Assembly: GCF_026072915.1 (NCBI RefSeq)
Contig: NZ_AP025943.1
Coordinates: 1,798,001 to 1,862,000, forward strand
Direction of reading: 5' to 3'
Length of the DNA: 64,000 nucleotides
Source of the DNA: Akkermansia biwaensis
GTDB lineage: Bacteria > Verrucomicrobiota > Verrucomicrobiia > Verrucomicrobiales > Akkermansiaceae
Under the pieces are notes generated by a model. It was given only the letters and a program-made list of their open reading frames with translations, had not been told where the DNA came from and made no database searches. How positions within the stretch are numbered: the first letter of the stretch is position 1; each line of letters starts with the position of its first letter. Shown here in pieces: positions 6,386 to 41,022 of this stretch. Made by a program: the position numbers and the translations under genes.

Positions 6386-6414
6386 TTGACATGCAGGGGC
6401 CATCCTGCTAGAAG
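6386..6414 (+). promoter_or_regulatory. Putative GH84 promoter
   Basis: Consensus TTGACA, 17 bp spacer, TAGAAG. The predicted transcript start is roughly 50 nt before the chosen ATG at 6474. This also shows that the longer open frame beginning at 6414 overlaps the promoter and is not the real start. Confidence 0.55.
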
Positions 6415-6473
6415 TGAGGCGATTGGTCCGTATTTACGTGGACTTGTCCCGTACAGGCTTTTATTTTACACTT

Positions 6474-23138: not shown

Positions 23139-25217
23139 CTAGCCCTGGGCGGGAGTGCCGAAGACATTGATTTCCGCGGCGGAAGCTCCGCTGCCGTCCA
23201 GCGCATTTGTTCCGGTAAAGCGGAAGTAGCGCACGGGCTCGTCGACATTCTTTAGGTTGACGTTTTGTTCGATGGGATTGGCGCGGAGATTGGAGAATTC
23301 CCCCTCTGCCGCCTTTTTCCAGGTTTTGCCGTCCGCGCTTACTTCAAACTGGTACTTGTCCGTCATGCCTTCCGTCTTTCCATCCTGGCGCGGCAGGTAG
23401 GAGAAGCTGGTGGCCCGGTAAGGCTTGCCCATGTCCACCACGAAGGACTGGGGAACGCCGGCAGTGGCGGTCCATGAGGTTTCCGGGTTGTCGTCAATGG
23501 CGGCGGCCGCATTGCCGGAGGTGGCGCTTTTCACTTTCCATCCGGTTTTGCTGATGCCGAATTTTGCCTGGCTGACGGGGCCGAGCTTGCCGTTGGCAAA
23601 CTGGCAGCGTGCCTTGACAACTCCGCTTTCGCTGAATTTGGCTCCCTGCGAATAGACGGGGGACCCGGCCTTGGGTTCGCTTCCGTCCGTCGTGTAGAGG
23701 ATTTTGTTCTTGCCGTCCGCCAGGATGACCAGGTTGTCGCCGCGGCGGAAGATGGACGGGCGGACGGCTCCCGCAGGTTGGCGGAACAGGGCGAATTCAG
23801 AGATGCAGGGCGTTGCCTGGCTGCCCGTGATGCGCAGGCGCAGCTTCTGGGCGGTGATGGGGCGGTCAAGCCGGCGCATGACCTGGTTGCCGATGGTTTT
23901 TCCTCCGTTGTCGATGCAGACCCATTTGCCCTTGATGAAAGCGTCGATGTTGAAGGAGTCCACACGCTGGCCCAGGCGGATTTGTTCGCGCAGTCGGATG
24001 ACGTCAAAGGTGGCGGGCTTGGGCAGCGTGATGACGGCGGAGGGCGTCAGATTGTCGTCCTCCACGGCCCAGTAGGTGTCCATGTTGCCGTCCGTCATGT
24101 TGGAAGGAGAGAATTTCTTGTCGTTGCCGCGGGTTTGGCTGGCCGTGGCCGTGGCCCCCAGAGCGAAGTTCTTGGCATACAGTTTGTCGCGCAATTCCTT
24201 GAATTCCATCAGGGACTTGACGTCGGCGGGGTCCAGTTTGCCGGTCTTGTCAGCGGCCACGTTCAGGATGAGATTGGCTCCGCGGCCTACGGAGTCAAAC
24301 CAGACCTGCATGAGTTCTTCCGGGGATTTGACGCGGGAGGCCTGGCCCTGGTGCCAGAACCAGCCGGAATGGTTGATGGTGGTGTCTCCTTCCGCGGGCA
24401 CCCAGCGTTCGCCGCCGCGCTTGCCGGTTCCGCCACCGCCGCCGTTCAGGCCCACGGTGCTCCAGTGGGGATAATTGACATGTCCCTTTTCAGAGCCGCC
24501 CCAGCGGGCGTCTCCATAATGGCCGGCGCCCCAGATGATGCAGTTGGGCTGGATGGAGCGGATCATTTCCACGATCTTTTCAAAGTTGTAGTATTTCTCC
24601 GCATTGCCGATGTTACGTTTTTCACGGGCTCCGCCATAGTAGCCGTCGCCGCCGTTGGCACCGTCAAACCAGATTTCAAACACGGGGCCGTAGTTGCTCA
24701 GAAGTTCCCGGATTTGCTGGTAATAGGCTTTCAGGTAGCCTTCCTTGCCGTATTCGGCGTGGTTGCGGTCCCACGGGCTGAGGTAGGTGCCGAATTTGAT
24801 GCCGTGCTTCTTGCAGGCCAGGGCGAATTCCTTGACCACATCCCCCTTGCCGTTTTTCCACGGGGTTTTCGTGATGTTGTGCTCCGTGGACTTGGTGGGC
24901 CAGGCGCAGAAGCCGTCGTGGTGCTTGGCCGTGTAAATCATGCCCTTCATGCCGCCTTTCTTGAAGGTTTCCACGATCTCGGAGGCGTTGAAGTCCGTGG
25001 GGTTGAAAATTTGCGGGTTTTCGTCTCCGTATCCCCATTCCCTGCCGGTAAAGGTGTTCAGGCCAAAGTGGATGAATCCGTAAAATTCCATGCGCTGCCA
25101 GTTCACCTGCTGGGGAGTAGGCACGGCGCCGTAAGGTTTGGGAGGGTCTGCGGCCTGTCCGGGCAGCATGAGAGAGGAAAGAGCGGTTCCAACAAAGAGG
25201 GGCGCAAGCTTGTTCAT
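23139..25217 (-). CDS. Secreted GH29 alpha-L-fucosidase with carbohydrate-binding C-terminus
   Basis: A 692-residue exported retaining fucosidase, likely cutting fucose from mucin or other host glycans. Signal peptide ends LPGQAADP. The catalytic barrel shows FYGFIHFGLNTF, TAKHHDGFCAW and the nucleophile D185 in EIWFDGANGG. After about residue 350 come a first discoidin-like region (ATASQTRGNDKKFSPSNM), a chitobiase-C-like segment (ILYTTDGSEPKAGSPVY) and a second discoidin/CBM32-like domain (SATSGNAAAAIDDNPETSW). The AGTVxxT-type acid/base is not assignable by eye. Start at 25217 gives the signal peptide; the 25268 frame start does not. Single-gene unit. Confidence 0.95.
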   Translation of the reverse strand: MNKLAPLFVGTALSSLMLPGQAADPPKPYGAVPTPQQVNWQRMEFYGFIHFGLNTFTGREWGYGDENPQIFNPTDFNASEIVETFKKGGMKGMIYTAKHHDGFCAWPTKSTEHNITKTPWKNGKGDVVKEFALACKKHGIKFGTYLSPWDRNHAEYGKEGYLKAYYQQIRELLSNYGPVFEIWFDGANGGDGYYGGAREKRNIGNAEKYYNFEKIVEMIRSIQPNCIIWGAGHYGDARWGGSEKGHVNYPHWSTVGLNGGGGGTGKRGGERWVPAEGDTTINHSGWFWHQGQASRVKSPEELMQVWFDSVGRGANLILNVAADKTGKLDPADVKSLMEFKELRDKLYAKNFALGATATASQTRGNDKKFSPSNMTDGNMDTYWAVEDDNLTPSAVITLPKPATFDVIRLREQIRLGQRVDSFNIDAFIKGKWVCIDNGGKTIGNQVMRRLDRPITAQKLRLRITGSQATPCISEFALFRQPAGAVRPSIFRRGDNLVILADGKNKILYTTDGSEPKAGSPVYSQGAKFSESGVVKARCQFANGKLGPVSQAKFGISKTGWKVKSATSGNAAAAIDDNPETSWTATAGVPQSFVVDMGKPYRATSFSYLPRQDGKTEGMTDKYQFEVSADGKTWKKAAEGEFSNLRANPIEQNVNLKNVDEPVRYFRFTGTNALDGSGASAAEINVFGTPAQG

Positions 25218-25362
25218 GGAGAATAGATGTGTTGCAGAAATACGCAGAATGCTCCTTCCTTCTTTCATAGAGGGGCTTTGCTGTCAAGTTGAAAGGGAAA
25301 CGGTGCATTCCGGACGGGGGAACGGCTTGGGTATTTTAACTGGGACATACTGAGAATTCCGC

Positions 25363-27523: not shown

Positions 27524-27552
27524 ATTGTGTTGTAATGCCTCCGTTTTGGCAA
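27524..27552 (-). promoter_or_regulatory. Putative truA promoter, near-leaderless
   Basis: On the minus strand, TTGCCA and CACAAT are separated by 17 bp; the -10 box ends seven bases before the ATG, so the mRNA would start at or next to the start codon. Confidence 0.45.
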
Positions 27553-27612
27553 GAGGCAAGTAAGGGAGACAGTGACGGTTTGGAATGGATGACCGGTGTT
27601 CCGTCCGCTCCC

Positions 27613-27618
27613 TAGCTT
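27613..27618 (+). promoter_or_regulatory. Possible -10 box of the phage-derived cassette
   Basis: TAGCTT, identical to the cdaA -10 box, lies 15 bases before the ATG at 27634. The matching -35 position (TGACCG at 27590) is poor, so this is tentative. Confidence 0.3.
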
Positions 27619-27633
27619 GAAAGCCATTAGAAC

Positions 27634-28935
27634 ATGGCTATACGAATACAGGATTTTGGAATGTCGCGCATGGGGCCGGATCTGTCCGGAATGATCCCGC
27701 TGGATGCGCTGGAAGCCCAGGCCGCAGGCGTTCGCCGCCTGTCCGCCGGGGTGGCGGATTTGGCGGGAACGGCAGAGAACATGCTGGCCGGGATGCAGGA
27801 GGTGAGGGACGCCGGACAATGGGCCGAGGCCCGGGACGGCCTCTACCGCTTTGAACAGGACGTGATGCGGGAGTTGGATTCCGCTGGCGCCGCGGACGAT
27901 TTGCAAGCTAGGTGGAAGAAGGCCCTGGCGGACAGGCTGCCTTCCTACCTGCCGGAAAAAATGTCCGGTCGGGTGAAGGGGCGCGTGGAGGCGGCGCGGG
28001 AAAATCTGGCCGCCGCCGGAAGCATTTACCTGGAAAAGATGTCCCGTCTTGGCCAGGTGGAGCAGGCGCGCCGTTCCTGGTCCGGAAGCGTGGAGTCTGC
28101 CGTGGAGCAGGGGGATGCCGGACTGGCGGAACGCAGGATTGAAGAGGGGATGGGCGTATTTGTGACCGGTGAGGAAGCCGGGCGCATGGCGGAGGAGGCG
28201 CGCGACCGGGTTGCTTTGAACCGGGCTGTGGAAGAGGTGCGCCGGGACCCGGCTGTCGCTCTGCCCGTCGTCCGGGCGGAACAGGAGGGAGCCCCCTTGA
28301 ATGAAATGGAAAGGAAGGTGGCCCGGGAAGCTGAAGCGGCCTACGGGGAATTGAAGCGGCGGTATGCGGATTCCATCTTCCGCACCGTGGCCGGCGGCGG
28401 CATGCTGCGCGACGAAGGGCTGGCGAATGCGGAAAAGTACGGTTTGGTCAGTCCCGGCCAGTTGAGGCGTTATGTGGATGCCCGCGACCGCATGCGGGAG
28501 GCGGAGCTTTCCGGCATCAGCTTCCCGGCGGACGAGGGGCTGCTGTGTCGGATGACCCGCCTGATTGACGAGGACTGCGGCGGTGACGGGGATACGGACG
28601 CTGTGATTGAGGTGGCCACTTCCGGACTTCCCGCCGGACAGGTGAAGATGCTGGCCGAGAGGCGGGAGGCGATGAAGCTGGTGCCGCAGGAGGTGCGCCG
28701 GGCGGCTTCCCGCCGCTTGTCCTCCATGTTCCGGAACGGGGCCTGGGGACCGGTGACGGATGCGCGGGCCGTGGAGGAATGGAAGCGGGTGCAGTGGGCC
28801 CTGCTGGATGCCGTGAAGAAGAATCCGGCGAATGCCGCCGCGGAGATGGAGCGGGTTTTTGAAGAGGAAAACCGGATGCAGGATGCCGGGTGGGTCGGCT
28901 TCCGGGACATGAAAAACAGGAAGGAGAAACAGTAA
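27634..28935 (+). CDS. Helical phage-type protein, first gene of terminase cassette
   Basis: A 433-residue, highly charged, mostly helical protein that I cannot name. It lacks a signal peptide. The N-terminus (IRIQDFG, then IPLDALEAQAAGVRRLSAGV) resembles the opening of internal virion or DNA-ejection-type phage proteins, in which an Ala-rich helix of this kind precedes a long coiled region. Heptad-like Ala/Glu/Arg stretches run through most of the sequence. Base composition matches the host genes around it. The next gene starts one base after its stop, with an AGGAG ribosome-binding site inside its last codons. The phage link rests mainly on its neighbour, the terminase. Confidence 0.6.
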   Translation: MAIRIQDFGMSRMGPDLSGMIPLDALEAQAAGVRRLSAGVADLAGTAENMLAGMQEVRDAGQWAEARDGLYRFEQDVMRELDSAGAADDLQARWKKALADRLPSYLPEKMSGRVKGRVEAARENLAAAGSIYLEKMSRLGQVEQARRSWSGSVESAVEQGDAGLAERRIEEGMGVFVTGEEAGRMAEEARDRVALNRAVEEVRRDPAVALPVVRAEQEGAPLNEMERKVAREAEAAYGELKRRYADSIFRTVAGGGMLRDEGLANAEKYGLVSPGQLRRYVDARDRMREAELSGISFPADEGLLCRMTRLIDEDCGGDGDTDAVIEVATSGLPAGQVKMLAERREAMKLVPQEVRRAASRRLSSMFRNGAWGPVTDARAVEEWKRVQWALLDAVKKNPANAAAEMERVFEEENRMQDAGWVGFRDMKNRKEKQ

Positions 28936-28936
28936 C

Positions 28937-31900
28937 ATGAAGGCGGAATGGGAAGAAGGGCAGAGCGGCTCGCTCCTGCAGGAAGAGGCTCCGGCGGAGG
29001 AAACCAGGAAGACGGAGGCGGTTTCGGCACAGGCTGCGCCTGCCGCAATCGTGGAGGATTCGGGACGCGAGGCGGCGGAGCGGGAAGAGTACTGGAACAG
29101 TGTGCTGACGGGGGATGTGGCGACCATCCCCCGGGAGGTGCGGCGTGAGGCGGAGGCCATGTACGCCCCCGGCATGGCGGATGGCGAGCGGGTGGCCGCC
29201 TGCGTGATGCAGTCCTGGGTGGCGGACACCGGAGGGATTCCGCGCGAACTCATCCGGAAGGACTGGGGGCAGATAAGGGAACAGGTGGCGCGCCAGTACG
29301 GGGCTTCCGGAAAGTCTGACAACGAGTTGTTCGTAGCGGTCTCCCAGCACAACCAGGTGCGCCTTTCCCAGCGGGAGACGCTGTTTGAACTATACCAGGA
29401 GGCTTATGACCGGGCCCTGGCGGGGACTTCGGAAGAGCCGGACGAACGGCGACTGGAGGCCGTTTCCCGCTGGCCGGAGGATTTGCGGTTCGTGGCGGAG
29501 AAGATGAGGAGCAGGGCCGTCTCCGACGCGCTGGATGACCGGAACCGCCTGTCGGAAGCCGCAGACGTGATACGGAAGGGGCTGGAAGGCCTGGTGGCCA
29601 ATGAAACGCCGCCGGAAGGCGGCTTCCCTGCCGTGCAGGTGAATTGGAAGCCGGTGAAAGGCATTCCGGACGTCGTGCGCGCCGTGGACTGTCTGGCGGG
29701 GCTGGGCGGCGACGATCGGCAGAAGGTGTTTCGCATGATGGCTCCGTACATGCGTTCCCGGCCCGGTTTCAGGACGGCCCTGGAGTCCGCGCTGAAACGC
29801 GGGGCTGCGGAGACGGCGGAAAATGTCGGCCAGTTTGCCGTGAACGGTGCGGCCTGGGTCATGCCGGACGGAAAAACGAAGGAGGCCCTGGACCGGTATT
29901 CCCGGAGTTTTGAGGAGCTGAGGAATTTTGCGCGGATGGAATTCGCCCCTTTGCGCGGGGGCAAGGATGCACCGTGGTTCCGTGAAATGATGGTGGACAT
30001 GGCCCAGCAGGGCGCATCCACGGCGCTGGCGTTTGCCGGGCCTGCGGGGCTTGGCGTGCTGATGGCCGGGGAGACGGGACGGCACATGGCGGATGCGCGG
30101 CGCATGAATCCGGACGGCGACTTTGACGCCCAGATGGACGGGGCCGTTCTGTCCGGCGGCGCCAACACCCTCCTTTCCTTCGGAATGACGAAGCTGGGCC
30201 GGAAAATGCTGGGGCAGGGCATGCGCTCCTTCCAGTCCATGCGTGCCGCGGGAAGTGCCGGGGCCGCCGCCGGAGCGGTTCTTTCCGGAACGGGCGCCCT
30301 TGCCGCGGATGCCGTGAAGATGGCCGCGGAGAACAAGATGATGGAACTGACCCCCATGCTGGCTCAGGAAGGGGTCGGCTTGGCCACCGGAAAGGAATCC
30401 GGCGTGGACTGGGAAGGGTGGAAGCAGAGGCAGCTTTCCCCGGAAGACCAGTTGAGGGAGGCCGGCATGATGATGCCTTTCCTGCTGATCGGGGCGGGGA
30501 AGGCGGCCCTGCATCACTTCCGCCATCCGTCCTCCCTTCTGGGGGATGGGACTCCTCTCAAGGTGTTCGGCATTCCGGACGGTGAAGCGGCCCGCATTCT
30601 GCGGGAAAAGGACGTGTACCGGGCCGGGGAGCTTTTGCAGGAATCCCTGCGTAATTCCCCGCTGTGGGGCTCCCTGTACATTTCCGGGAAGGCGTTGGAA
30701 TGGTCCCGCGCCCTCGGCGAGGGCGGAGAACCGTTTTTAAGGACGGAACGGGAGGTGCGGGACTTTCTGGAGCTGCCTTCCCCCGTGCGTTCCAAACCGT
30801 GGAACATGGCTGACTTCCCGGAATCCGCGGAAGCGTTGAGGAAGCTTTCCCTGCATCCGGACCATGCGGAGGTGCGTTCCCGGTGGCTGCTCCGCGCCGG
30901 GCTGCCCCGCGTGGGAGAATCGCTGGACGCGGAGGGAAGGACGGCGTACGGCATGGACCCCGCCCCGGGTTCTCCGCTCAAGCGCGTTTCCGGAAAGTCT
31001 TCCGCGGAGGAGGCCCTTTCCTCCTGGTATGAATTCCTGTGCCGGAAGGAGGCGGAGGACCTGGGCCTGATCCGCAACAGGAACGGACTGGAAATTCCGT
31101 GGCGTCTGCGCAATGAGACGGATTACGACATGCGGGCGGAAGACGTGCGCCGCTCCTTTGTGGCGGAAAGGCTGAAACAGGGCGCCGCCCGTCCTTACAA
31201 AATGCTTCTGCTGGCTTATCCGGAGGAAGCGGGCGCTGCGGTGAAGTTTTCCCGGCAGGACTGGGACGCCGTGACGCGGGAAATGGACGGAAGAGCCCGT
31301 GCGAATGTATATGAGGGCGTCATGGAGCGCGTGCACGGCGCTTCCCAGGAAGAAGTGGCCGGCCACGTGGCCGGAAGGCTGTGGCAGTCCTTTTGCCGGG
31401 ATGAATACAGTTCCGGCAGGGCGCGCCTCTGGCTGGAGGAGGGGAGCTCCCTGCTGAACGCTCCGGAGCTGCTGGAAAATTCCTCCACTCCGGAGGGGCT
31501 CGTCTCCTCCCTGTCCCGGATGAGCGCGATGATGTCCCGGGTGGGAGACAGGGAGCGCCAGTCCGTCAGCCCCGAATTGCAGGAGATGAACCGCTGCGTA
31601 TGGGGAGCCCAGGCGGACGTGAACAGCCTGTTCCACGTGCTGCCGAACATGGCGGATTTTGACGTCTGCGTGGGGCGCGGCTATACGCCGGTGGAAAGTT
31701 ACTCCCGCCTGCTGTCCCGCTATCTGGAAACTTCTCCCGGACGGACGGCGGAATTTGCCTCCGTGCTGGATGCGGACCGGCTGTCCGCCGGGCCGGAAGA
31801 GCCTGCCCCCCGTATCTATCCCGGTACGGAGAAGGCCGTGGAAAACCTGTCCTGCCTGACGCCCCGCCTGTTCCAGTCCTCGGGCGCCCGCGGGAACGGA

Positions 31901-34090
31901 TTGTGGAGAGTCCGCTATCCCTCGGGAACATGGTCGGCGTGGCATTCCTCGCGGGAGGGAGCCGCAGCGGACCTGATGGCGAATGTCTCCATGATGTTTT
32001 CCCCGGCCTGCATTGCCAAGAAAGATTTGATCCGCGGGTGGCGGTGGCATGCCGTCAACGGACATCCGGAATGGGACCCCACGCATTTGAGGTTGTCCGG
32101 CGGTCTGGAAAATGCTCGCGGCGAGCGTCTCCCCTGCCTGTATGACGGTCTGACGGCCATGGCCGTCTCCGACATGCTGAGGGCGGGCTACGGCTTCCGC
32201 GGAGCCTCCGGGTCCGGAGACCTGCTGGAAGTGACGGGCGCAGGCCGCGTGGCCGCGGAAAAGCTGATGAGCCCTGATGCCCTGCGGGAGCGCATGGACA
32301 TCCACGGCAAATACGTGGGCGGCGTGCAAAGTCTGGGCGTGGATGCGGACAACCAGCCCGTGCCCACTGCCAGAGGATTGGTCATGCACCGCCTGCGCCT
32401 GCATAACACGGCCAATCCGCTGGCCCTGATTGAGGACAAGGCGGAAGTCGTCTGGGACCGTTTGATGCGCACGGAGCAGCTTTCCCCGGAAGCGGCCTGG
32501 GAAATGCTCAAGCGCATGGGCCGTGTCCCGCGCCGCAAAGCGTTCCCCGGAGAAACGGAGCTGATCGAGGAGCTGTCCCAGCTTTCCAAAGAATATTTCT
32601 TTGCCAGTCTGGACCATGAAGCCGTGCCGGAAACGGTGGCCGCATGGGCGCGTTACGGCGCGGCCAGTCCGGAAAGGGCCCCGCAGCCCCTCGCGGAACT
32701 GAGCCGCCGCGCGGCTGCATTGAACGGGATGCTGAAAGATGGAAAGGGTGCGGGCGCCGGATTTCTGGACATGCTGCGGGAAACCGTGGGAATGAACGGG
32801 CGGATACGGGCGGAACGCGCCTGGAGCGGGAACGGGAGTGCGGAAGTCCGCCTTCCGATGATGGAACGGTACGCCCACAGCCTGATGGCGGGGCATGTTC
32901 TGTCCTCCGTGCCCGTCCATGTGCGGACGGACCTGGAAAGGGCTCTGGCTTCCCTGGACGGTTATGAAGGCAGTTCCCTTCGCCGGGCGGGGCGTCTGGC
33001 GGCGGCGCGCATGGCGGAACTGGCCGGGGTCTTGCGGGAATTCCCGGATTTGAACTCATGGCGTCCGGACCCGGACCGTCCCGGCCTGTACCTGCATTTG
33101 GTGCGCAAACCGTTCAGAGGCGCGAAAAACGCCTTTCCGCGGACGGTGGACGGTTCTCTGCCCGCTCCCGTTCTGGAGGCTCCCTCCTACGTGGAGGATG
33201 ACTTTTCCGTACGGCGCGGCGTCTCCGCCCCCGCCGCCTGGCGCGGCCGTCCGTACGTGGCCAGGGCGGTACAGACGCTGGAGGCGGTGAGGCGTGACTT
33301 TGCCGGCCGTCCGGAAGCGGCGGAATCCGGCATCGTCTGGCAGGGAAGGAAATACCGCGTGGACTCGGAAGCGGCTCCGGAGGGAGTGACGTCCGCCTGG
33401 ACGCGCGAGGTGCCGCTGGATGAAGCGGCAGTACTGATTGACATGCTGGACCGGAGGCAGCAGGAAGTACGTGGAGGCATGCTCCCCTTCCTGCCTGACC
33501 CGGAAGAGGCGCGTGCGATGTACGCTACTTGTGTTCTTTACCGTGATCCGGATGATCCGGGGCATACCGTGCGCCTGATGCCGGGCGTTCCGGAAAGCCC
33601 CGTGAAGGAGGCGCGTGCGCCGTACGTGGTGCATGCCTGGAACGGAGTCTATCTGGACGGGAACGGCCGCCCCGCCGTCTCTGAACGGGAATCCTACATT
33701 CCGCTGGAATGCTTTACGGGGGCGGGTGAAGAACCTTCCGCCGCCGTGGCGCGGGAAAGCCGCGGCCGTTTCCTGGGCCGGATTCTGGAGACCTTCAGTG
33801 ATACCGGCGCACAGGAACGGTACTGGTGGAATGCGGACCAGGCCGTGGGGTGCTTCATGGAAGACGTGATCAGGCTGTATGAGGAACAGGGCGTGAGGGA
33901 AAACTATCTGCGCGGCAGGCTGGATCTGTTCCATCCCGTGATGGTGCAGGGGCTGCGCTTCGTTTCCCACGTGCTGAATGACCCCCTGGCATTCCGGCTG
34001 CCGCTGGACAGGGGAACGGATGCCCTGAGGGCGATGACCCGGGAGGGCGTGTTATTGAAGGAATTGATGCAGGAATATGAAAAACCATGA
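28937..34090 (+). CDS. Giant 1717-residue protein of the terminase cassette
   Basis: A 1717-residue protein without signal peptide and without a domain I can identify. Residues 1-60 are acidic and Ala-rich. A region at about 350-470 is rich in Gly/Ala and small hydrophobics (for example LAFAGPAGLGVLMAGETG and SAGAAAGAVLSGTGALA) and could cross or insert into a membrane. The rest is soluble-looking, rich in Arg, Glu and Trp. No HExxH, Walker or nuclease motif was seen. Size, position beside a terminase and a hydrophobic central patch recall internal virion/ejection proteins (T7 gp16 type) or the large polyvalent proteins of phages. The frame is intact over 5.1 kb, which argues for selection. 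Its end overlaps the terminase by 14 bp. Confidence 0.65.
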   Translation: MKAEWEEGQSGSLLQEEAPAEETRKTEAVSAQAAPAAIVEDSGREAAEREEYWNSVLTGDVATIPREVRREAEAMYAPGMADGERVAACVMQSWVADTGGIPRELIRKDWGQIREQVARQYGASGKSDNELFVAVSQHNQVRLSQRETLFELYQEAYDRALAGTSEEPDERRLEAVSRWPEDLRFVAEKMRSRAVSDALDDRNRLSEAADVIRKGLEGLVANETPPEGGFPAVQVNWKPVKGIPDVVRAVDCLAGLGGDDRQKVFRMMAPYMRSRPGFRTALESALKRGAAETAENVGQFAVNGAAWVMPDGKTKEALDRYSRSFEELRNFARMEFAPLRGGKDAPWFREMMVDMAQQGASTALAFAGPAGLGVLMAGETGRHMADARRMNPDGDFDAQMDGAVLSGGANTLLSFGMTKLGRKMLGQGMRSFQSMRAAGSAGAAAGAVLSGTGALAADAVKMAAENKMMELTPMLAQEGVGLATGKESGVDWEGWKQRQLSPEDQLREAGMMMPFLLIGAGKAALHHFRHPSSLLGDGTPLKVFGIPDGEAARILREKDVYRAGELLQESLRNSPLWGSLYISGKALEWSRALGEGGEPFLRTEREVRDFLELPSPVRSKPWNMADFPESAEALRKLSLHPDHAEVRSRWLLRAGLPRVGESLDAEGRTAYGMDPAPGSPLKRVSGKSSAEEALSSWYEFLCRKEAEDLGLIRNRNGLEIPWRLRNETDYDMRAEDVRRSFVAERLKQGAARPYKMLLLAYPEEAGAAVKFSRQDWDAVTREMDGRARANVYEGVMERVHGASQEEVAGHVAGRLWQSFCRDEYSSGRARLWLEEGSSLLNAPELLENSSTPEGLVSSLSRMSAMMSRVGDRERQSVSPELQEMNRCVWGAQADVNSLFHVLPNMADFDVCVGRGYTPVESYSRLLSRYLETSPGRTAEFASVLDADRLSAGPEEPAPRIYPGTEKAVENLSCLTPRLFQSSGARGNGLWRVRYPSGTWSAWHSSREGAAADLMANVSMMFSPACIAKKDLIRGWRWHAVNGHPEWDPTHLRLSGGLENARGERLPCLYDGLTAMAVSDMLRAGYGFRGASGSGDLLEVTGAGRVAAEKLMSPDALRERMDIHGKYVGGVQSLGVDADNQPVPTARGLVMHRLRLHNTANPLALIEDKAEVVWDRLMRTEQLSPEAAWEMLKRMGRVPRRKAFPGETELIEELSQLSKEYFFASLDHEAVPETVAAWARYGAASPERAPQPLAELSRRAAALNGMLKDGKGAGAGFLDMLRETVGMNGRIRAERAWSGNGSAEVRLPMMERYAHSLMAGHVLSSVPVHVRTDLERALASLDGYEGSSLRRAGRLAAARMAELAGVLREFPDLNSWRPDPDRPGLYLHLVRKPFRGAKNAFPRTVDGSLPAPVLEAPSYVEDDFSVRRGVSAPAAWRGRPYVARAVQTLEAVRRDFAGRPEAAESGIVWQGRKYRVDSEAAPEGVTSAWTREVPLDEAAVLIDMLDRRQQEVRGGMLPFLPDPEEARAMYATCVLYRDPDDPGHTVRLMPGVPESPVKEARAPYVVHAWNGVYLDGNGRPAVSERESYIPLECFTGAGEEPSAAVARESRGRFLGRILETFSDTGAQERYWWNADQAVGCFMEDVIRLYEEQGVRENYLRGRLDLFHPVMVQGLRFVSHVLNDPLAFRLPLDRGTDALRAMTREGVLLKELMQEYEKP

Positions 34091-35708
34091 ACATTTGACG
34101 GAATCGTGGAGTCTGCCGTGGCAGTCTGTCCTGTCCAGCCAGCTCTGGCGGCTGGAACACCTGTACTGGATAGAAAACAAGGCGGGCCAGCTCCAGCGCT
34201 TCTCCATGAACAAGGCCCAGAGGCGGCTGCATGAAGGGCTGTGGTACCGGAACGACATTCTGAAGGCGCGCCAGCTCGGCATCTCCACGTATGTGGCCCT
34301 GCTGATGCTGGACATGAGCCTGTTCCGTTCCAACTTCCACTGCGGCATTATTGATAAAAGCCTGCCTGACGCCCAGGCAAAGCTGGCCAAGCTCCACTTC
34401 GCGTGGGACCATCTGGACTACCTGCCGCCGGAACCATCCGCCATGGATGTAGCGCTGGCGCGCCTGGGGGAAAGAATCAAGCGCATGTCCGGCGTGGAAA
34501 AAAAGGGGGAATGGCGTCCCTGTACGGCGGCTCTCACCCGGCTGGCTTTCTCCAACGGCAGCGATGTCCGGGTGGGCACCAACCTGCGCGGCGGCACGAT
34601 GCAGTTCCTGCATGTTTCCGAGCTGGCTCACGTCTCCGTGCATGCCCCGTGGCGTGCTCGGGAAATCCGCTCCGGCGCCATCAATACCGTGCCGCCTGGC
34701 GGCTTTATCCTGAAGGAAAGCACCCATGAAGGCGGCCGCTACGGCGTGAACTACGAACTGACGCGGCAGGCCATGGAAAACATGGGCAAGAGCGAGCTGT
34801 CCCCGCTGGACTTCCGGTTCTTCTTCTTCAGCTGGTTTGACCAGGAGGAATACTCCCTGCCGGGGCGCGGCAGGTGGAGCAGGGAACTGGATGCCTACTT
34901 CCTCTCCCTGGAGCGGGAAACGGGCGTGAAGCTGGACGCGGGGCAGAAGCGGTGGTATGCCCGCATGGCGCGCGTGATGGGCGCGGCCATGAAGCAGGAA
35001 TATCCGGGAACTCCCCAGGAGGCGTTCTCCACCGGCGAGGAGGGAAGCATTTACGGCAGCCGCATCATGGCCCTGCGGGAGCGGGGACGCGTGGGGATGG
35101 AATTCCCAGCGGATCCGGAGGCTCCCACATTCACGGCGTGGGACCTGGGCCTGAGCGACCATACGGCTATCTGGCTGGTCCAGGTCATGGGGGACAGCAT
35201 CCACTGGCTGGACCATTACGCCGCCAACCAGCAGCCCTTGGCCCACTATGTGGAAAAAATAAGGGAATGGGAAAAGGAATACGGCCTGACGGCAACAGCT
35301 CACCTGCTGCCCCATGACGCCGCACGCCGGGACGCCCACGGCGTTTCCTACGTGGAAAACATGGCGAGGCTGGGGCTGGCCAACGTGCGCGTGGTGCCCC
35401 GGACAACGGATGTATGGCGCGGCATCAACACGCTCCGGGAACTGCTGGAGCGCAGTTTCTTCCATGTCCGCACCCAGGAGCGGGCGCGCAATCTGCGCGG
35501 GGAGGAGGAGCCGGGAGGCGTGGAGCATCTGGAATTGTACCGGTCCAGACTGCCCGGAACGGGCGGTTCCCTGGCGGAAAGTCCCGTGCATGACGCCCAT
35601 TCTCACACGGCGGACGCCGCCCGCACCTTTGCGGAAGCCTGGTCCCACGGACTGCTCCACGGACCCGGAGACGAGCGGCCGCGCCGCAGGAGGGCTAAAA
35701 TGTGGTGA
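34077..35708 (+). CDS. Phage-type terminase large subunit
   Basis: A 543-residue protein with both terminase domains. The ATPase part has a deviant Walker A (KARQLGIST, residues 63-71, Lys at the front rather than GKT) and a Walker B-like strand ending FLHVSELAHV with E182. The RNase H-like nuclease part opens with AWDLGLSDHTAI (D356) and closes with DAHSHTADAART (D506, D513). Large terminases pump DNA into procapsids and cut it. Here no small terminase, portal or capsid gene is nearby, and the gene is last in its operon. ATG at 34077 has an AGGA five bases upstream. A strong hairpin ends the transcript. Confidence 0.85.
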   Translation: MKNHEHLTESWSLPWQSVLSSQLWRLEHLYWIENKAGQLQRFSMNKAQRRLHEGLWYRNDILKARQLGISTYVALLMLDMSLFRSNFHCGIIDKSLPDAQAKLAKLHFAWDHLDYLPPEPSAMDVALARLGERIKRMSGVEKKGEWRPCTAALTRLAFSNGSDVRVGTNLRGGTMQFLHVSELAHVSVHAPWRAREIRSGAINTVPPGGFILKESTHEGGRYGVNYELTRQAMENMGKSELSPLDFRFFFFSWFDQEEYSLPGRGRWSRELDAYFLSLERETGVKLDAGQKRWYARMARVMGAAMKQEYPGTPQEAFSTGEEGSIYGSRIMALRERGRVGMEFPADPEAPTFTAWDLGLSDHTAIWLVQVMGDSIHWLDHYAANQQPLAHYVEKIREWEKEYGLTATAHLLPHDAARRDAHGVSYVENMARLGLANVRVVPRTTDVWRGINTLRELLERSFFHVRTQERARNLRGEEEPGGVEHLELYRSRLPGTGGSLAESPVHDAHSHTADAARTFAEAWSHGLLHGPGDERPRRRRAKMW

Positions 35709-35716
35709 AGGGAAGG

Positions 35717-35774
35717 AAAAGAACCGTTTTTTTGATTGATGGTTGACAGTTTCGTCAAAAAACGGTTCTTTTTT
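35717..35774. terminator. Long bidirectional-type terminator after the terminase gene
   Basis: A 16-bp perfect stem (AAAAGAACCGTTTTTT / AAAAAACGGTTCTTTT) with a 24-nt loop lies eight bases after the stop and continues into T. A-rich and T-rich flanks would allow termination in both directions. Confidence 0.85.
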
Positions 35775-35818
35775 CCGGCGTTCCGTTGTCTAACGGAGTG
35801 ATGCTGCCGCACGAGATA

Positions 35819-36715
35819 ATGAAATTGCCCCGTTTTTCCCTGCCTGCCCTGTTGTTCTGTATCCCGGTTTTGGTAACTTCCTGCGGTACTGGCGGGCGGA
35901 ATGCCCCTCTTCCTCCGGCTTCCTCCACACCTGTGGAGGAACTGACCGGGTATTTTGAGGGGAAGGGAACCATCCCCGGCCATCTGCTCAAGTGGGAGGA
36001 TGATCCTTCCCTGCCCGGAAAGCTTCTGATCGTGGTGGACAAGAAAAAGCAGATGATGTACGTTTACCGTGGCACGCACCGCATAGCCTATGCTCCCATC
36101 AGCTCCGGAAAAAGCCACGGCATGACGCCGGACGGCTATTTCCGCATCTCCTCCAAGGACAGGGACCATCATTCCTATTACGGGACCTTTGTATCGAGTG
36201 ACGGAAGCCAGCGGGACGGCGACATCAGAAAGGAATCCCCGAGGGCGGGAGAAAGGTTTGAGCCTGCCAAAATGCCCTACTTCATGAGGGTGAACGGGGC
36301 GGTAGGCATTCATGAAGGGTATCTGCCCGGGCATCCTTCCTCGCACGGGTGCATACGCATTCCCCATCTGATTGCCGCAAATCTCTTTGAGGTTGCCCCG
36401 GTGGGGACGCGCGTCATTGTCAAATACGGCAGCTGGAACGTTCATGACCTGCAGAAGAAACCGGATTCCCATTTCAAAACGGTGCACAGGCCCTCTCCGG
36501 GCAAGTCGGGAGGAACCGCGGTGGCCGGGACTGGCGGGAATTCTTCTTCCCCCGGCCTGGAAGTTCCTTTAAAATCGGGACAATCCGCGGGAAAAAATGA
36601 AGAGGCTTCCGCGTCTTCGGGCGCTTCGCCCGTGGCGGAATCCGCCCTCCCTTCCTTTTCTCCGGCGGAGGCGGCATCCCCCTCTTCCGGCCATGGACTC
36701 AAACCAGTTGAATAA
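35819..36715 (+). CDS. L,D-transpeptidase (YkuD) lipoprotein
   Basis: A 298-residue lipoprotein (lipobox LVTSC) with a YkuD catalytic domain. After an LLIVVDKKKQMMYVYRG strand, the active site is HEGYLPGHPSSHGCIRI with C178 as nucleophile and the His two residues before it. These enzymes form 3-3 peptidoglycan cross-links or attach proteins to the wall. The C-terminal 80 residues are Ser/Pro/Gly-rich and low complexity, probably a spacer. Start at 35819 is set by the lipoprotein signal; the longer frame from 35786 is not needed. Its end overlaps the acetyltransferase gene by 23 bp. Confidence 0.9.
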   Translation: MKLPRFSLPALLFCIPVLVTSCGTGGRNAPLPPASSTPVEELTGYFEGKGTIPGHLLKWEDDPSLPGKLLIVVDKKKQMMYVYRGTHRIAYAPISSGKSHGMTPDGYFRISSKDRDHHSYYGTFVSSDGSQRDGDIRKESPRAGERFEPAKMPYFMRVNGAVGIHEGYLPGHPSSHGCIRIPHLIAANLFEVAPVGTRVIVKYGSWNVHDLQKKPDSHFKTVHRPSPGKSGGTAVAGTGGNSSSPGLEVPLKSGQSAGKNEEASASSGASPVAESALPSFSPAEAASPSSGHGLKPVE

Positions 36716-37325
36716 TATGCTTTCCGGACGTCTGTACGACGCCCGCGATCCGGAACTGGCCGTGCGGCGCCTCAGGGCCCGCAGGCTGACGGCCCGTTAT
36801 AACGGTGCGGACCCGGAGGATGATGAATTGCGCCGGGAAACGGCCCGCGAGCTTCTGGGAAGCGTTGGGGAGGGGTGCTATCTGGAGCCCCCGTTCAGGT
36901 GCGACTACGGTTCCAACATCAGCCTGGGGGACCGCGTTTACGCCAATTTCAATCTGGTCATTCTGGATTGCGCCCGGGTGGAAATTGGAAACGACGTGCT
37001 GATAGGCCCGAATGTAGGCATTTATACCGCGGGCCATCCTGTGGACCCCGGCCTCAGGCAGGAATGCCTGGAATTCGCACTGCCGATCACCATTGAAGAC
37101 GGCGTCTGGATAGGCGGCCACGTGGCGGTGGCTCCCGGCGTGCGCATCGGCAGGAACTCCGTGATAGGAGCCGGAAGCGTGGTGACCCGGGACATTCCCC
37201 CCGGCGTGGTGGCCGCGGGCAATCCCTGCCGCGTTCTGCGGTCCATTGAGGAAAGAGACCGCGAATTTTATGCCGGAAACAGGCGCGTGGACGGCCGGGC
37301 GGAGACAAATTCCCGGATGCCGTGA
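36693..37325 (+). CDS. Maltose/galactoside-type sugar O-acetyltransferase
   Basis: A 210-residue left-handed beta-helix acetyltransferase of the Maa/NodL/LacA group. The Mac domain (MLSGRLYDARDPEL onward) is followed by hexapeptide repeats. The catalytic His lies in IYTAGHPVDP, and VWIGGHVAVAPGVRIG and AGNPCRVLR are typical of the family. Acetyl-CoA is the donor; the sugar acceptor is not deducible. The start inside the L,D-transpeptidase gene (overlap 23 bp) suggests co-translation. A link to cell-wall or surface sugar modification is possible but only inferred from the neighbour. Confidence 0.9.
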   Translation: MDSNQLNNMLSGRLYDARDPELAVRRLRARRLTARYNGADPEDDELRRETARELLGSVGEGCYLEPPFRCDYGSNISLGDRVYANFNLVILDCARVEIGNDVLIGPNVGIYTAGHPVDPGLRQECLEFALPITIEDGVWIGGHVAVAPGVRIGRNSVIGAGSVVTRDIPPGVVAAGNPCRVLRSIEERDREFYAGNRRVDGRAETNSRMP

Positions 37326-37333
37326 AATTTGAA

Positions 37334-37363
37334 TTGCCTTTAAAGGGTGATCGTGCATAGTTG
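37334..37363 (+). promoter_or_regulatory. Putative rpsO promoter
   Basis: TTGCCT, 18 bp spacer, TAGTTG, leaving a leader of roughly 50 nt before rpsO. Confidence 0.45.
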
Positions 37364-37423
37364 ACGCCCTCACAGTGTCGATTAGCCGCTGCCACGAGCT
37401 AAACACATTCAAGAAAAACACTC

Positions 37424-37678
37424 ATGAGTAACGAAATCAATCTGCAGGAATTCAAGATGCATGAAAAGGACTCCGGTAGCTCCAGCTTCCAGATCGCCCT
37501 TCTGACCAAGCGCATCGCCCACCTGACCGCCCACCTGGGAGAAAACAAGCACGACGTTTCCTCCCGCCGCGGGCTGCTGAAAATGGTGGCTCTGCGCCGC
37601 AAGCTTCTTGACTACGTCAAGCGTGAAGATCTGGCCCAGTATCAGAGCCTGATTCAGCGTCTTGGACTGCGCCGCTAA
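37424..37678 (+). CDS. rpsO: 30S ribosomal protein S15
   Basis: An 84-residue ribosomal protein that binds 16S rRNA and helps platform assembly. The S15 signature is clear: [45 protein letters not shown] and the final [12 protein letters not shown]. It has its own promoter and terminator. In many bacteria rpsO is followed by pnp; here the efflux operon (about 5 kb) separates them. Confidence 0.97.
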
Positions 37679-37703
37679 GCGGAGGAGCATATTCCCGTTT
37701 GAT

Positions 37704-37737
37704 ACGGCCGTTGCGTTTTTCGCGGCGGCCGTTTTTT
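37704..37737 (+). terminator. rpsO terminator
   Basis: Arms ACGGCCG and CGGCCGT with a 15-nt loop are followed directly by six T. Confidence 0.85.
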
Positions 37738-37787
37738 GTGGCCCGGTGTACGGGTTTTCCTGCCTCCGCCCGGAGGGGAAGGAAGGC

Positions 37788-37815
37788 TTGACTGGCTGAA
37801 AATGTCTGTTAGCCT
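37788..37815 (+). promoter_or_regulatory. Putative promoter of the efflux operon
   Basis: TTGACT, 16 bp spacer, TAGCCT. The -10 box lies in the centre of the palindrome at 37802-37824 and ends 11 bases before the tetR start codon. Confidence 0.6.
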
Positions 37816-37824
37816 GACAGACAT
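37802..37824. promoter_or_regulatory. Palindromic operator, probable TetR-family binding site
   Basis: Perfect 8-bp arms ATGTCTGT and ACAGACAT surround 7 bp that contain the -10 box. The site lies two bases before the start codon of the TetR-family gene. Binding here would block RNA polymerase, so autorepression of the whole efflux operon is the obvious reading. Confidence 0.75.
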
Positions 37825-37826
37825 CT

Positions 37827-38444
37827 ATGGAACAGATGACAAGAATCCAGCAAAATACGCTGCGGAGGATTGTGGAGGCGGCCATTGAATTGATGAGCGA
37901 GCGGGGATTTCACCGGGTCAGCGTGCAGGAGGTCGGGAAAAAGGCAGGCATTTGTGAAAAAACCGTATTCCGCTACTTTGCGACGAAAAAATCCCTGCTG
38001 GATGAAATCATCCGGTACAGGGCGTACGCCAGCGAACTGAAAAGGGAATTTGAAAACGGCAGGACCTGGAATCTGGATCATGACCTGAAACTGGCGGCGC
38101 GGCTCTACTTTCAGGAAACGAAGGCCAAGAGGAACGCGTTCCGGGCCTATCTGAGCGCCCTGGATTCCGTGGACACGAACGGGGAGGACTTTCTGCGTGA
38201 TCCGCGGGAGCTTCACGCCTTCCTGTGCGACTACATGACCGCCATGCAGAAAAAGGGGAAGGTCAGGGCGGGGGATGTGCGCCTCATGGTGCGAGCCTTC
38301 GTCAACACGCTGCACGGGTACATGCTCATGTACTGCCTGAATGACGACGGCAAATCATGGGGGAACAAGGTGGCTTCCATGAAACTGACCATAGACCTGT
38401 TCATTCAGGGATTCTCTCAAACCGGCAATTCCGTCACTGCATGA
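37827..38444 (+). CDS. TetR-family repressor of the efflux operon
   Basis: A 205-residue regulator. The N-terminal helix-turn-helix spans about residues 8-55 (AAIELMSERGFHRVSVQEVG, then KTVFRYFATKKSLLDEII). The C-terminal ligand/dimer domain is variable as usual. It is the first gene of the operon tetR-hlyD-MFS-OMF, and the palindrome overlapping its promoter is the likely operator. The inducer is probably a drug or toxic compound exported by the pump. Confidence 0.92.
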   Translation: MEQMTRIQQNTLRRIVEAAIELMSERGFHRVSVQEVGKKAGICEKTVFRYFATKKSLLDEIIRYRAYASELKREFENGRTWNLDHDLKLAARLYFQETKAKRNAFRAYLSALDSVDTNGEDFLRDPRELHAFLCDYMTAMQKKGKVRAGDVRLMVRAFVNTLHGYMLMYCLNDDGKSWGNKVASMKLTIDLFIQGFSQTGNSVTA

Positions 38445-39451
38445 GCAAGCATCTGAAGGCCGTTTCCCTGGGAAGCATGGCTCTGGCGGCTGCGGGCGGC
38501 ATCATCTGGGGAGTCTGGCACATCCGGGAAAGTCGTTCCATGAATACGGACGACTGCCGCGTGGAGGCGAGCATCGTGTCCGTGGGCACCAAGCTGGCGG
38601 AACGGGTGGTTGCCGTGGATGTGGAGGAAGGAGACACGGTGAAGAAGGGACAGACGCTCGCCCATCTGGACGGCCGGGCCGTCCAGGCGCGCCTGCTGGC
38701 CGCGCGTTCCAGAGTCAAGCTCATGCAGGCCAGGTATGATGAAATGCTGGCGGGATTCCGCCCTCAGGAAATCGAATCCCAGCGGGCCAAAACCGCCCAG
38801 GCTGCCGCCAATCTGGAACACGCGCGGCGTGATTACGAGCGCATTGAAAAACTAGTGCGCGACCAGGCGGGTATCAGCTCCGCGGACCGCGATGCCGTCC
38901 GGGCCTCCTATTTGGCGGCTCAGGCCGTGGAAAAGGCGGAACGGGAAAATCTGGCCCTGCGCCTGGAAGGCTACCGCGAAGAGGAAAAAAGGTCGGCCCA
39001 GGCCCAGCTGGAGGCGGCCAGGGCGGAGCAGGATGAACTGGAAGTGCTGTGCGAGGAATGCGTGATCAAGTCCCCTGTGGACGGAATCATTGCCCGCAAG
39101 CTGGTGAATGGCGGAGAAATGGTCAGCGCCGGGCAGAAACTCTTCTCCATCGTGGACAGCCATGACATCTGGCTCAATGTCCGGGTGGAGGAGACGAAAA
39201 TAGGCCGCATCAGGACGGGACAGGAAGTGCGGTTCACGCTGGACGGCTATGACGGCCGGGTGTTTTACGGAAAGGTGTATGAAATAGGCGCGGCCTCCTG
39301 CTCCATGTTCTCCCTCATCTCCACGGAAAACGTCAGCGGTTACTTCACCAAGGTCATGCAGCGCTTCCCCATCAAGGTAAGCCTGCCGGAAAGCGGGGAC
39401 GGCGTGGTATTCCGGCCCGGCATGCAGGGCACGGTTTCCATCGGTTTCTGA
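38441..39451 (+). CDS. HlyD/EmrA-type periplasmic adaptor
   Basis: A 336-residue membrane fusion protein linking the MFS pump to the outer-membrane channel. One N-terminal membrane helix (LGSMALAAAGGIIWGVW) is followed by the first half of a lipoyl domain (VDVEEGDTVKKGQTLAHLDG). A helical hairpin at about 70-210 comes next, then the second lipoyl half (IKSPVDGIIARKLVNGGEMV) and a beta-barrel domain. It overlaps the tetR stop (ATGA). The family exports hydrophobic drugs and similar compounds. Confidence 0.92.
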   Translation: MSKHLKAVSLGSMALAAAGGIIWGVWHIRESRSMNTDDCRVEASIVSVGTKLAERVVAVDVEEGDTVKKGQTLAHLDGRAVQARLLAARSRVKLMQARYDEMLAGFRPQEIESQRAKTAQAAANLEHARRDYERIEKLVRDQAGISSADRDAVRASYLAAQAVEKAERENLALRLEGYREEEKRSAQAQLEAARAEQDELEVLCEECVIKSPVDGIIARKLVNGGEMVSAGQKLFSIVDSHDIWLNVRVEETKIGRIRTGQEVRFTLDGYDGRVFYGKVYEIGAASCSMFSLISTENVSGYFTKVMQRFPIKVSLPESGDGVVFRPGMQGTVSIGF

Positions 39452-39462
39452 TCAGGGGCGTT

Positions 39463-41022
39463 ATGGGCGGAAATGCGGATGAAAAGGAAATGTCCGGAGC
39501 GCGGCGGTGGCTGCTGCTGGGGATGGCTTGTGCCTGCACCATGCTCCCGTTCCTGAACATGGGGTGCATCACGGCTGCCACGCCCGACCTCTCCGGCACC
39601 TTTGTCGTGGGTACCCTGGACGTTTCCTGGTCCGGAGCGGCGTGTCCGCTGGGAACGGCCCTGTCCTTCACCGTGGCGGCGTACTTGTGGGCGCGCCTCG
39701 GATTGAGAAGATCGCTGCGGACGGCACTGCTGCTGATGCTGGCCGGGACGCTGGCTGGACTGGCGGCGGACCATTTCTTCATCATGGTTCTGGCCCGTTT
39801 CCTTCAGGGGACGGGAGGCGGTCTGGCCCTGGTTTACGGCACGGGCCTGGTCAATGCCGCGCTGCCGCCGGAGCGCCGCAGCCCGGCGATGGGAGTGAAA
39901 CTGTGTTCCATCGGGCTGGCTTCCTGTGCAAGCCCGGTGGCTGGATGCCTGCTGGTCCAGTACTGGCACTGGAAGGGGCTGTTTGTGATCGTGGGCGCGG
40001 CGGCCGCCCTGCTGGCGGTTTTGACGACCTTGTATGTCCCCAACACGAAGATTCCCAAAAACGGGAAATTTGACTGGTTCTCCTTCCTGACGCTGGCGGC
40101 GGGGTGCGTGTGCATCCTGATGGTGCTCATTTACGGAGAAACGGACGGCTGGACGGCTCCCGGAGTCCTGTGCTGGATGTACGGCGGATTCTGCTCCTTC
40201 GTGCTGGCCGCCATCTCCTGTATGACCCACCGGACGCCTCTGCTGGACGTCCGTGTGCTGGGAAACTGGCGGTTTCTGTTCGGGCTGCTGGCCTCCCTGT
40301 GCAACATCTTTTGCATTTGCTGGGTGCGCGTGGGAACGGTGCAGTTCATGCGCAACGTCATGAACTACGAGCCCGCGGGAATCGCATGGGTATTCCTGGT
40401 GCTGGTGGCGGGGTTCTGCGCCGGTGCGGCTATCGTCCTGCCGCTGATGCAGAAAGGCAGGCTGGCCCTGAGGGTTGGTATGATGGCGGGACTGCTGGGG
40501 CTGGGTTCCTCCGCCTTCTTTCTGTCCCGGCTGGACGCCGGCTGCTCCTGGCTGGACGTGGCGTGGCCCCTGGGCCTTTTCGGTGTCGGGTACGCCTTCT
40601 GCCTGAATGTCGCCACGCCGCTCGCGCTGCGGGGGGTGGAGGCTAAATCCGCCGCGGCCTCCTCCCGGACGCTGAACACGGTGCGTTACGTCTTCATTTC
40701 CATGTATGTCGGTAGCGTGAGCACCGTGCTGGCCCACATGAAGACGGGGTACCGCTTCGACATGGCGGAACAGGTCCGGGACGACTCTCCCGGCACGGTG
40801 CAGACGCTCGACATGTGGCAGCGGCATTTCTCGGAAACGGGTGGGACGGCGGCGGACATCCATGCCTCCGTGAACGCCATGCTGAACCATGCCGTAGCCT
40901 TGCAGAGCCAGGTATTTTCCGTGGATGCCTTTTACCTTTGCACCGTGATCGTGGGGGCCGCCGGAGTCCTCTTTGCGCTGCTTTGCCTGAAATCTGGAAA
41001 GGAACGAAACACAGCTTCATGA
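39463..41022 (+). CDS. MFS drug exporter, EmrB/QacA type
   Basis: A 519-residue major facilitator with about 14 membrane helices, as in the DHA2 drug:H+ antiporters. The N-terminal region (TPDLSGTFVVGTLDVSW) and the motif C-like stretch (GTGGGLALVYGTGLVNAALPPERR) fit EmrB. It is encoded between its adaptor and its outer-membrane channel, giving a complete tripartite pump. Its stop overlaps the next start (ATGA). Confidence 0.9.
   Translation: MGGNADEKEMSGARRWLLLGMACACTMLPFLNMGCITAATPDLSGTFVVGTLDVSWSGAACPLGTALSFTVAAYLWARLGLRRSLRTALLLMLAGTLAGLAADHFFIMVLARFLQGTGGGLALVYGTGLVNAALPPERRSPAMGVKLCSIGLASCASPVAGCLLVQYWHWKGLFVIVGAAAALLAVLTTLYVPNTKIPKNGKFDWFSFLTLAAGCVCILMVLIYGETDGWTAPGVLCWMYGGFCSFVLAAISCMTHRTPLLDVRVLGNWRFLFGLLASLCNIFCICWVRVGTVQFMRNVMNYEPAGIAWVFLVLVAGFCAGAAIVLPLMQKGRLALRVGMMAGLLGLGSSAFFLSRLDAGCSWLDVAWPLGLFGVGYAFCLNVATPLALRGVEAKSAAASSRTLNTVRYVFISMYVGSVSTVLAHMKTGYRFDMAEQVRDDSPGTVQTLDMWQRHFSETGGTAADIHASVNAMLNHAVALQSQVFSVDAFYLCTVIVGAAGVLFALLCLKSGKERNTAS

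Follow-up and report, generated by a model that had tools for sequence, protein, structure and literature searches.

The 64,000-nucleotide stretch of the Akkermansia biwaensis chromosome analysed here (the window; positions 1798001-1862000 of contig NZ_AP025943.1, called C1 below, of the single-contig genome G000 of 3,175,525 bases) carries a trio of adjoining genes encoding two putative internal virion proteins and a terminase large subunit (TerL). Gene content and comparison across the genus lead us to propose, with good confidence, that the trio is one locus of a podovirus-type gene transfer agent (GTA) scattered over five chromosomal loci. The system would probably produce particles resembling phages, by which DNA of the bacterium itself would pass from cell to cell. 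Its 13 genes are the trio, a capsid gene, a tail tube B gene, a gene encoding a gp14-like protein and a portal cluster, all on one chromosome. An earlier note on this DNA had described a terminase without phage partners and a possible new three-gene system. There is indeed no capsid or portal gene beside the trio in this genome, but the partners are found at four other chromosomal places, and the trio thus appears to be one piece of a scattered particle system rather than a system in itself. The suggestion of a domesticated phage module has fared better, the genes being conserved through much of the genus.

The trio encodes TerL and two putative internal virion proteins

The features of the trio in the window are:

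27634..28935, + strand: gene 1, gp15-like internal (ejection) protein; open reading frame (ORF) of 433 residues, almost entirely helix, after divergent truA
28937..34090, + strand: gene 2, gp16-like giant internal protein; ORF of 1717 residues, named mainly from its position
34077..35708, + strand: gene 3, TerL, 543 residues; terminase family matches, putative ATPase and nuclease motif residues retained
34263..34289, + strand: Walker A-like stretch KARQLGIST, TerL residues 63-71, from sequence and conservation
28920..28926, + strand: Shine-Dalgarno-like GAAGGAG ahead of the gene 2 start, read from the sequence
about 35717..35775, + strand: long inverted repeat followed by a T-run, 3' of gene 3, by eye
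27541..27633, no strand: divergent intergenic region between truA and the trio, by eye, no statistics

The trio is real: the three ORFs lie on the same strand with one base between genes 1 and 2 and a 14-base overlap of genes 2 and 3, as had been noted together with the Shine-Dalgarno sequence. Gene 3 matched phrog_2 at 9.6e-17 and Terminase_6C at 7.7e-05, the latter just above its cut-off, and residues K63, R65, G68, T71, E182, D356, D414 and D513 are at least 95% conserved across 47 TerL rows. We take KARQLGIST to be Walker A-like, and the ATPase and nuclease roles of the conserved residues are likewise presumed. In tblastn searches with 11 system proteins the trio gave the only matches in the window. 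The gene order proved to be conserved in relatives: a comparison of flanks showed the trio in each of 12 other species. In 11 of these tblastn matched all three genes, and in the twelfth (locus L027) gene 1 is assigned by position only.

Genes 1 and 2 taken alone gave no significant family match in Pfam and PHROG scans, and a PDB sequence search with their profiles gave nothing useful. Prophages in the genus were more informative. The gp15 profile (A1) matched a prophage ORF of locus L039 at 3e-10 and one of L085 at 0.002, and aligned with the prophage profile A3 (hhalign, 75.5%); the AlphaFold model of the protein is all-helical (pLDDT 80.5, pTM 0.58). The giant, 1651-2013 residues long in the other species read, follows the gp15-like gene just as giants do in prophages L085, L031 and L039, and its profile aligned weakly with those of the prophage giants (hhalign, 42%). 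We read genes 1 and 2 as encoding putative gp15-like and gp16-like internal proteins of short-tailed phages, the names gp14, gp15 and gp16 following T7 by an analogy that we assume.

Base composition is host-like or slightly higher (GC 0.632 for the trio plus five partner genes vs 0.602 for eight chosen host genes) and ARAGORN found no tRNA in the window, both in line with the earlier note. Its strong terminator stands in part: by eye, the inverted repeat and T-run at 35717-35775 form a probable terminator of the trio, whereas they are absent from the list of a consensus terminator scan, which gave about as many terminators as chance would (9 against 8.1 expected). Upstream of the trio, TTGGAATGGATGACCG at 27580-27595 also precedes the trio in the distant species G011, and GGAATGGATG recurs ahead of the capsid gene of G057 (both by eye, no statistics); a shared control element is possible.

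Partner genes lie at four other loci

Partner families were taken from prophages in the genus and then sought across the genus genomes. TerL, portal, tail B and capsid each gave a single match in G000. The partner genes are:

C1:3064899-3066482: portal (PF12236, 1.7e-139)
C1:2860551-2863019: tail tube B (phrog_376, 8.9e-132)
C1:353002-353910: capsid (PF19821, 1e-99)
C1:226324-226803: gp14-like protein, alone (phrog_418 'internal virion protein', 6.1e-06)
Portal cluster, one strand: p71, a Bbp19-like protein and a 293-residue scaffold-like protein, adjoining the portal gene
Portal cluster, other strand: tail tube A (phrog_394, 4.6e-42), a 97-residue winged-helix protein and an 85-residue protein

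The gp14-like locus was found in a search with the L085 protein (E 0.00114), a search with the L031 protein having given no match. A profile of 23 relatives matched ORFs of L095, L085, L039, L032, L031 and L036, as well as an ORF of phage ct3Et533 at 4.6e-5. The name scaffold-like for the 293-residue protein comes from its 37% identity with a prophage protein encoded just upstream of a capsid gene; neither of the two matched a family above cut-off. The 85-residue protein aligned with residues 66-122 of a prophage small terminase (TerS) at an hhalign probability of 50.5%, and the best of 5326 ORFs with its profile were two prophage TerS at weak E values of 0.063 and 0.1. The protein is a possible small-terminase remnant, similar to the C-terminal half of prophage TerS but without the N-terminal part. 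A winged-helix gene also precedes TerS in the L039 prophage. Full-length small-terminase-like genes are present in L035, L037 and L039, with Terminase_2 above cut-off in L039 only.

The trio, tail B and capsid have host-like neighbours (truA, L,D-transpeptidase, methyltransferases, laccase-like and ThuA). Host-like genes are likewise what Pfam identified at the partner loci: tail B is flanked by methyltransferases and a KH protein, the capsid gene by the laccase-like and ThuA genes, and the portal cluster by thioredoxin and a CRISPR-Cas locus; the two neighbours of the gp14-like gene matched no Pfam family. The CRISPR-Cas locus (Cas2 and Cas3 by Pfam; L077 12737-15941, at about 3.069 Mb of C1 in G000) adjoins the portal, tail A and 85-residue protein cluster. 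Portal matches in G021, G029 and G052 contain one in-frame TGA within the matched stretch, which may be a natural gene end or a real break.

The dispersed genes are kept or lost together

The full set of TerL, portal, tail B and capsid genes occurs in 51 of the 76 genus genomes; another 9 have three of the four, and 16 have none. All nine three-of-four genomes are less than 95% complete, and the 43 genomes that are at least 95% complete divide into 32 with all four genes and 11 with none, with no partial sets. Were the genes independent, 0.25 genomes with none would be expected, a figure that shared ancestry makes only a guide. The dispersed genes are kept or lost together across related species, as one unit. 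For this count prophage-type rows were removed by hand. The rows dropped were prophage-type TerL (38-52% identity), TerL fragments of 155 residues in G045 and 36 residues in G064, and portal, tail B or capsid rows that lay on contigs with a prophage-type TerL or were clearly lower-scoring or extra copies. Partial rows were counted as present for TerL of G042, portal of G036, tail B of G020 and capsid of G040. The non-carriers G001, G064, G066, G070 and G074 hold prophage-type copies. The gp14-like locus, found after the count, was matched in 58 of the 60 carriers (the misses being G024 and G060) and in one of the 16 non-carriers, G001, where the match lies beside prophage TerL and tail B. Some matches in distant carriers (such as G052, on a prophage contig, and G036, E 0.003) may not be the dispersed copy.

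On a host tree of PNPase, built from 14 of the 60 carriers, 15 of the 16 non-carriers and one outgroup, the trait changes state four times, and at least three of these changes are forced by well-supported branches. Losses rather than gains are the simplest reading, short of proof with 10 of the 26 forks open. Near PNPase in G001, G045 and G075, PNPase itself was the only system or neighbour gene matched.

The loci are far apart, share a history and are under purifying selection

Positions of four loci were compared in six single-contig carriers, and in each of the six even the nearest pair is separated by 82-348 kb. If the chromosome is circular, an arc enclosing all loci must span at least about 1.7 Mb in G000 (0.88 Mb in G057), and related phages have a whole genome of 35-42 kb with such genes in one genome. 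As the loci are too far apart for joint packaging, the particle could not carry its own genome. Sets recur in distant species, some of them less dispersed: tail B directly follows TerL in G038, the capsid gene lies about 7 kb from TerL in G026 and the gp14-like gene 1.4 kb from TerL in G057. These arrangements suggest that the dispersed set descends from a once-clustered ancestor later pulled apart. The earlier note had held that capsid, portal and integrase genes conserved beside the trio in relatives would make it an ordinary prophage piece; phage structural neighbours exist in part, in these three genomes.

Pairwise distances at four unlinked loci are correlated with one another at 0.905-0.970 (11 species) and with those of PNPase at 0.655-0.778 (12-13 species), the PNPase values being reached in at most 1 of 5000 permutations. 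The ratio of nonsynonymous to synonymous substitution rates (dN/dS) was computed with an NG86 script against G009 for all system genes but gp14. It is 0.028 for capsid, 0.051 for tail A, 0.056 for portal, 0.063 for the winged-helix protein and 0.069 for TerL; 0.129 for the scaffold-like protein, 0.138 for the Bbp19-like protein, 0.142 for p71 and 0.317 for the 85-residue protein; and 0.193 for tail B, 0.201 for gp16 and 0.206 for gp15. Five host genes gave 0.120-0.196 (dS 0.57-1.10, compared with 0.30-1.11 for the system genes). Capsid, portal and TerL are thus under strong purifying selection; these three and tail A are held tighter than the five host genes compared, and gp15, gp16 and tail B about as loosely as the least constrained of those.

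Set-type TerL is distinct from that of related prophages

TerL matches occur in 63 of the 76 genus genomes and fall into two identity groups. The first (60-99% identity) comprises 57 genomes plus a contig-edge fragment in G042, and none of the 57 rows has an internal stop, which, for TerL, agrees with the earlier argument against decay; the second, prophage-type group has 38-52% identity. Beyond the genus an order search of 288 genomes gave no TerL match above 46% identity, and no match was confirmed in an IMG/VR scan with TerL. In a tree made by a quick method with a midpoint root, one branch (SH-aLRT 99) separates all 23 set-type TerL rows from 24 prophage, order and phage rows.

Flanks were first read at 20 places, ten for each identity group. 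At the ten set-type places the gp15-like gene, the giant and TerL stand together and the outer neighbours differ in distant species. The ten prophage-type places (L031-L040) belong to Akkermansia podovirus-type prophages that share the same families, have the gp15-like gene before the giant and differ from the set in that TerL has other phage genes no more than 10 kb away at every one of the ten places. Among the places scanned, capsid, tail proteins and an integrase lie near TerL in L031 (the only one of the ten scanned for integrase), portal, capsid and tail B in L033 and portal in L037; the full-length small-terminase-like genes of L035, L037 and L039 are a further difference.

Three genomes of genus g3 of the same family (G155, G290 and G296; loci L163, L164 and L165) have a TerL of 43% identity with a TerS-like ORF nearby; over about 10 kb around TerL, tblastn gave no match to portal or capsid. 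We tentatively take these as prophage-type rather than another scattered set. The capsids of prophages L035 (1343-2236) and L037 (1660-2559) are 63-69% identical to the scattered capsid, with TerL only about 45% identical, which may reflect common ancestry of the capsids or a mosaic exchange between these prophages and the dispersed set. In G057 a separate prophage-type module of tail A, tail B, gp14, gp15 and giant gp16 (L085 8164-19499) accompanies the dispersed set.

Other genes of the window

Downstream of the trio, 36597-42434 holds an acetyltransferase gene followed by TetR regulator, HlyD, MFS and outer-membrane efflux genes, and PNPase lies at 42769-44928. Genes for a beta-N-acetylglucosaminidase-like protein (under its curated cut-off) at 6414-9467 and an alpha-L-fucosidase at 23139-25268 are as expected of a mucin degrader.

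The GTA interpretation and its alternatives

The set shows each of the sequence-testable properties by which PMC9662315, in the text available, recognizes GTAs. Its portal, capsid, tail A and B, TerL, Bbp19-like and gp14-like proteins are caudoviricete-derived. It is fully endogenised at multiple loci, five in G000, with four loci at least 82 kb apart in six of six carriers. Its genome would not be fully packageable, given an arc of about 1.7 Mb or 0.88 Mb against related phages of 35-42 kb. The TerL clade and the correlation with PNPase, one host marker, indicate vertical inheritance and co-diversification with the host. The contiguous structural genes of an ordinary prophage are lacking, these genes being dispersed among host-like neighbours in the six single-contig genomes. 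We consider it likely that this is an independently domesticated podovirus-type GTA, ancestral to Akkermansia and split into at least five host-embedded loci in which capsid, portal, terminase and tail are separate from one another, with selection for the assembled particle as the only force keeping the set together. The Verrucomicrobiota would then have their first GTA, and a much-studied gut commensal a main route by which its genes are exchanged.

In the proposed mechanism the portal (C1:3064899), scaffold-like protein and capsid (C1:353002) would build the head, which TerL would fill with chromosomal DNA from no specific start site, perhaps helped by the 85-residue possible small-terminase remnant without a DNA-binding part. 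Tail tubes A and B would close the head, and the gp14-, gp15- and gp16-like proteins, packed inside, would form the channel for DNA delivery. Lysis, receptor binding and regulation would have to come from genes outside the 13 identified. No replication or integration gene was identified among the set, for which no dedicated search was made.

Several points weigh against this interpretation. Neither a gene for lysis nor one for a tail fibre or regulator was identified, although no dedicated search for lysis or fibre genes was run. The system is known here from genes, and particle, packaging and transfer are predicted from them. The gp15 model gave 85 weak matches to PDB folds but none at E 0.001 or better, and thus matched no solved fold, not even one of a T7 protein. 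The gp16-like protein is identified mainly by position, the scaffold-like one by position and likeness to a prophage protein without a family, and the score linking the 85-residue protein to TerS is weak. The genes for gp15, gp16 and tail B diverge fast, at about the top of the host dN/dS range, and the host tree is of one gene. Finally, no shared promoter motif was found: with 49 upstream stretches as input, expectation maximization yielded nothing beyond T-rich or near-neighbour matches, many of the start positions used for tail B, tail A and distant capsids not being start codons. A palindrome seen by eye ahead of capsid and tail B was dropped, as it looks like the terminator of the upstream gene.

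The same genes could encode a domesticated particle with a task other than moving DNA; short-tailed and either empty or loaded with protein, it would kill neighbours or send them signals. The lack of an identified fibre or lysis gene (again without dedicated search) and of evidence for DNA transfer would fit, as would the quicker evolution of the internal proteins compared with capsid and portal, which might be seen in cargo or in parts that face a target. However, TerL, at dN/dS 0.07, retains its ATPase and nuclease residues, which would be needless for an empty particle, and Pfam and PHROG scans of the system proteins showed no toxin-like domain; we think this explanation unlikely. Stray structural proteins might instead poison the assembly of related podovirus-type prophages, as a decoy or conflict system. 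Such prophage-type loci exist in the genus (the ten read), and two prophages carry the capsid 63-69% identical to the scattered one. One or two proteins would suffice for this, whereas the set has 13 genes, of which those tested show joint presence and absence, and the catalytic TerL residues are kept, which makes a decoy quite improbable. Decay of an old prophage that rearrangement had split up would account for unlinked fragments, but this very doubtful explanation is already largely refuted by the purifying selection, the intact TerL frames (0 of 57 with internal stops) and the absence of partial sets among the 43 genomes at least 95% complete. Misplacement of the genes of an active phage or satellite by assembly, for which no supporting point was found, is next to impossible given agreement on their separation in six single-contig genomes, host-like flanks of trio, tail B and capsid, and, for a circular chromosome, the arc of about 1.7 Mb in G000.

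Relation to known systems

Among phages, HTVC010P-like Pelagibacter podoviruses and Podoviridae ct3Et533 are among the best-placed matches to the set, with identities of 32-38% for capsid (best 12 of 42 records) and 26-27% for portal (best 12 of 174 records). HTVC010P has genes of matching size and place around its portal, the small ones compared by size and place, and the likeness to ct3Et533 extends to gp14 by profile. In contrast to the dispersed set, these phages have their genes in one genome of 35-42 kb, with an annotated DNA polymerase and primase in ct3Et533.

In RcGTA the head and tail genes form one long cluster, and the particles are siphovirus-like. By description, the Akkermansia set differs in its podoviral type and in having capsid, portal, terminase and tail B all apart. 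In the available text of PMC9662315 the known genes of RcGTA, about 20 kb in total, are likewise spread over five loci, so that a count of five has a precedent; RcGTA and its relatives in Alphaproteobacteria share with the set dispersed phage-derived genes, vertical inheritance and a TerL clade of their own. The nearest known system is FpGTA of Faecalibacterium (PMC12946183, as described in its available text), likewise from a gut anaerobe, with short-tailed-type TerL, portal, scaffold and capsid at more than one locus and a possible small terminase without an obvious DNA-binding domain, to which the weakly scoring 85-residue protein may be compared. Its operon I was present in 12 of 12 Faecalibacterium genomes examined by its authors; in one strain about 125 kb separates its two operons, of 10.5 and 5.5 kb, the second of which holds fibre and lysis genes, and particles and DNA of about 9 kb were shown (PMC12946183). 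Compared by description, the Akkermansia set belongs to another phylum, occupies five loci with capsid, tail B and gp14-like genes each alone, has no lysis gene identified (without dedicated search) and is known from genes alone. Among the matches listed in searches of the literature on GTAs and on Akkermansia phages and prophages, titles and abstract openings contained no description of the system. Virion DNA of A. muciniphila YL44 has been sequenced and two prophages reported, the available text of PMC8008629 not mentioning 'gene transfer agent'.

Known GTAs are few and mostly alphaproteobacterial, and a GTA of Akkermansia would, if true, add a phylum. It would also be a second short-tailed type in the gut, set by description beside FpGTA, and would give genes a way to move within a genus that has been put forward as a probiotic. 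Loci of one gene would be hard for cluster-based prophage finders, and searching for unlinked structural genes with joint presence and absence could reveal other such systems.

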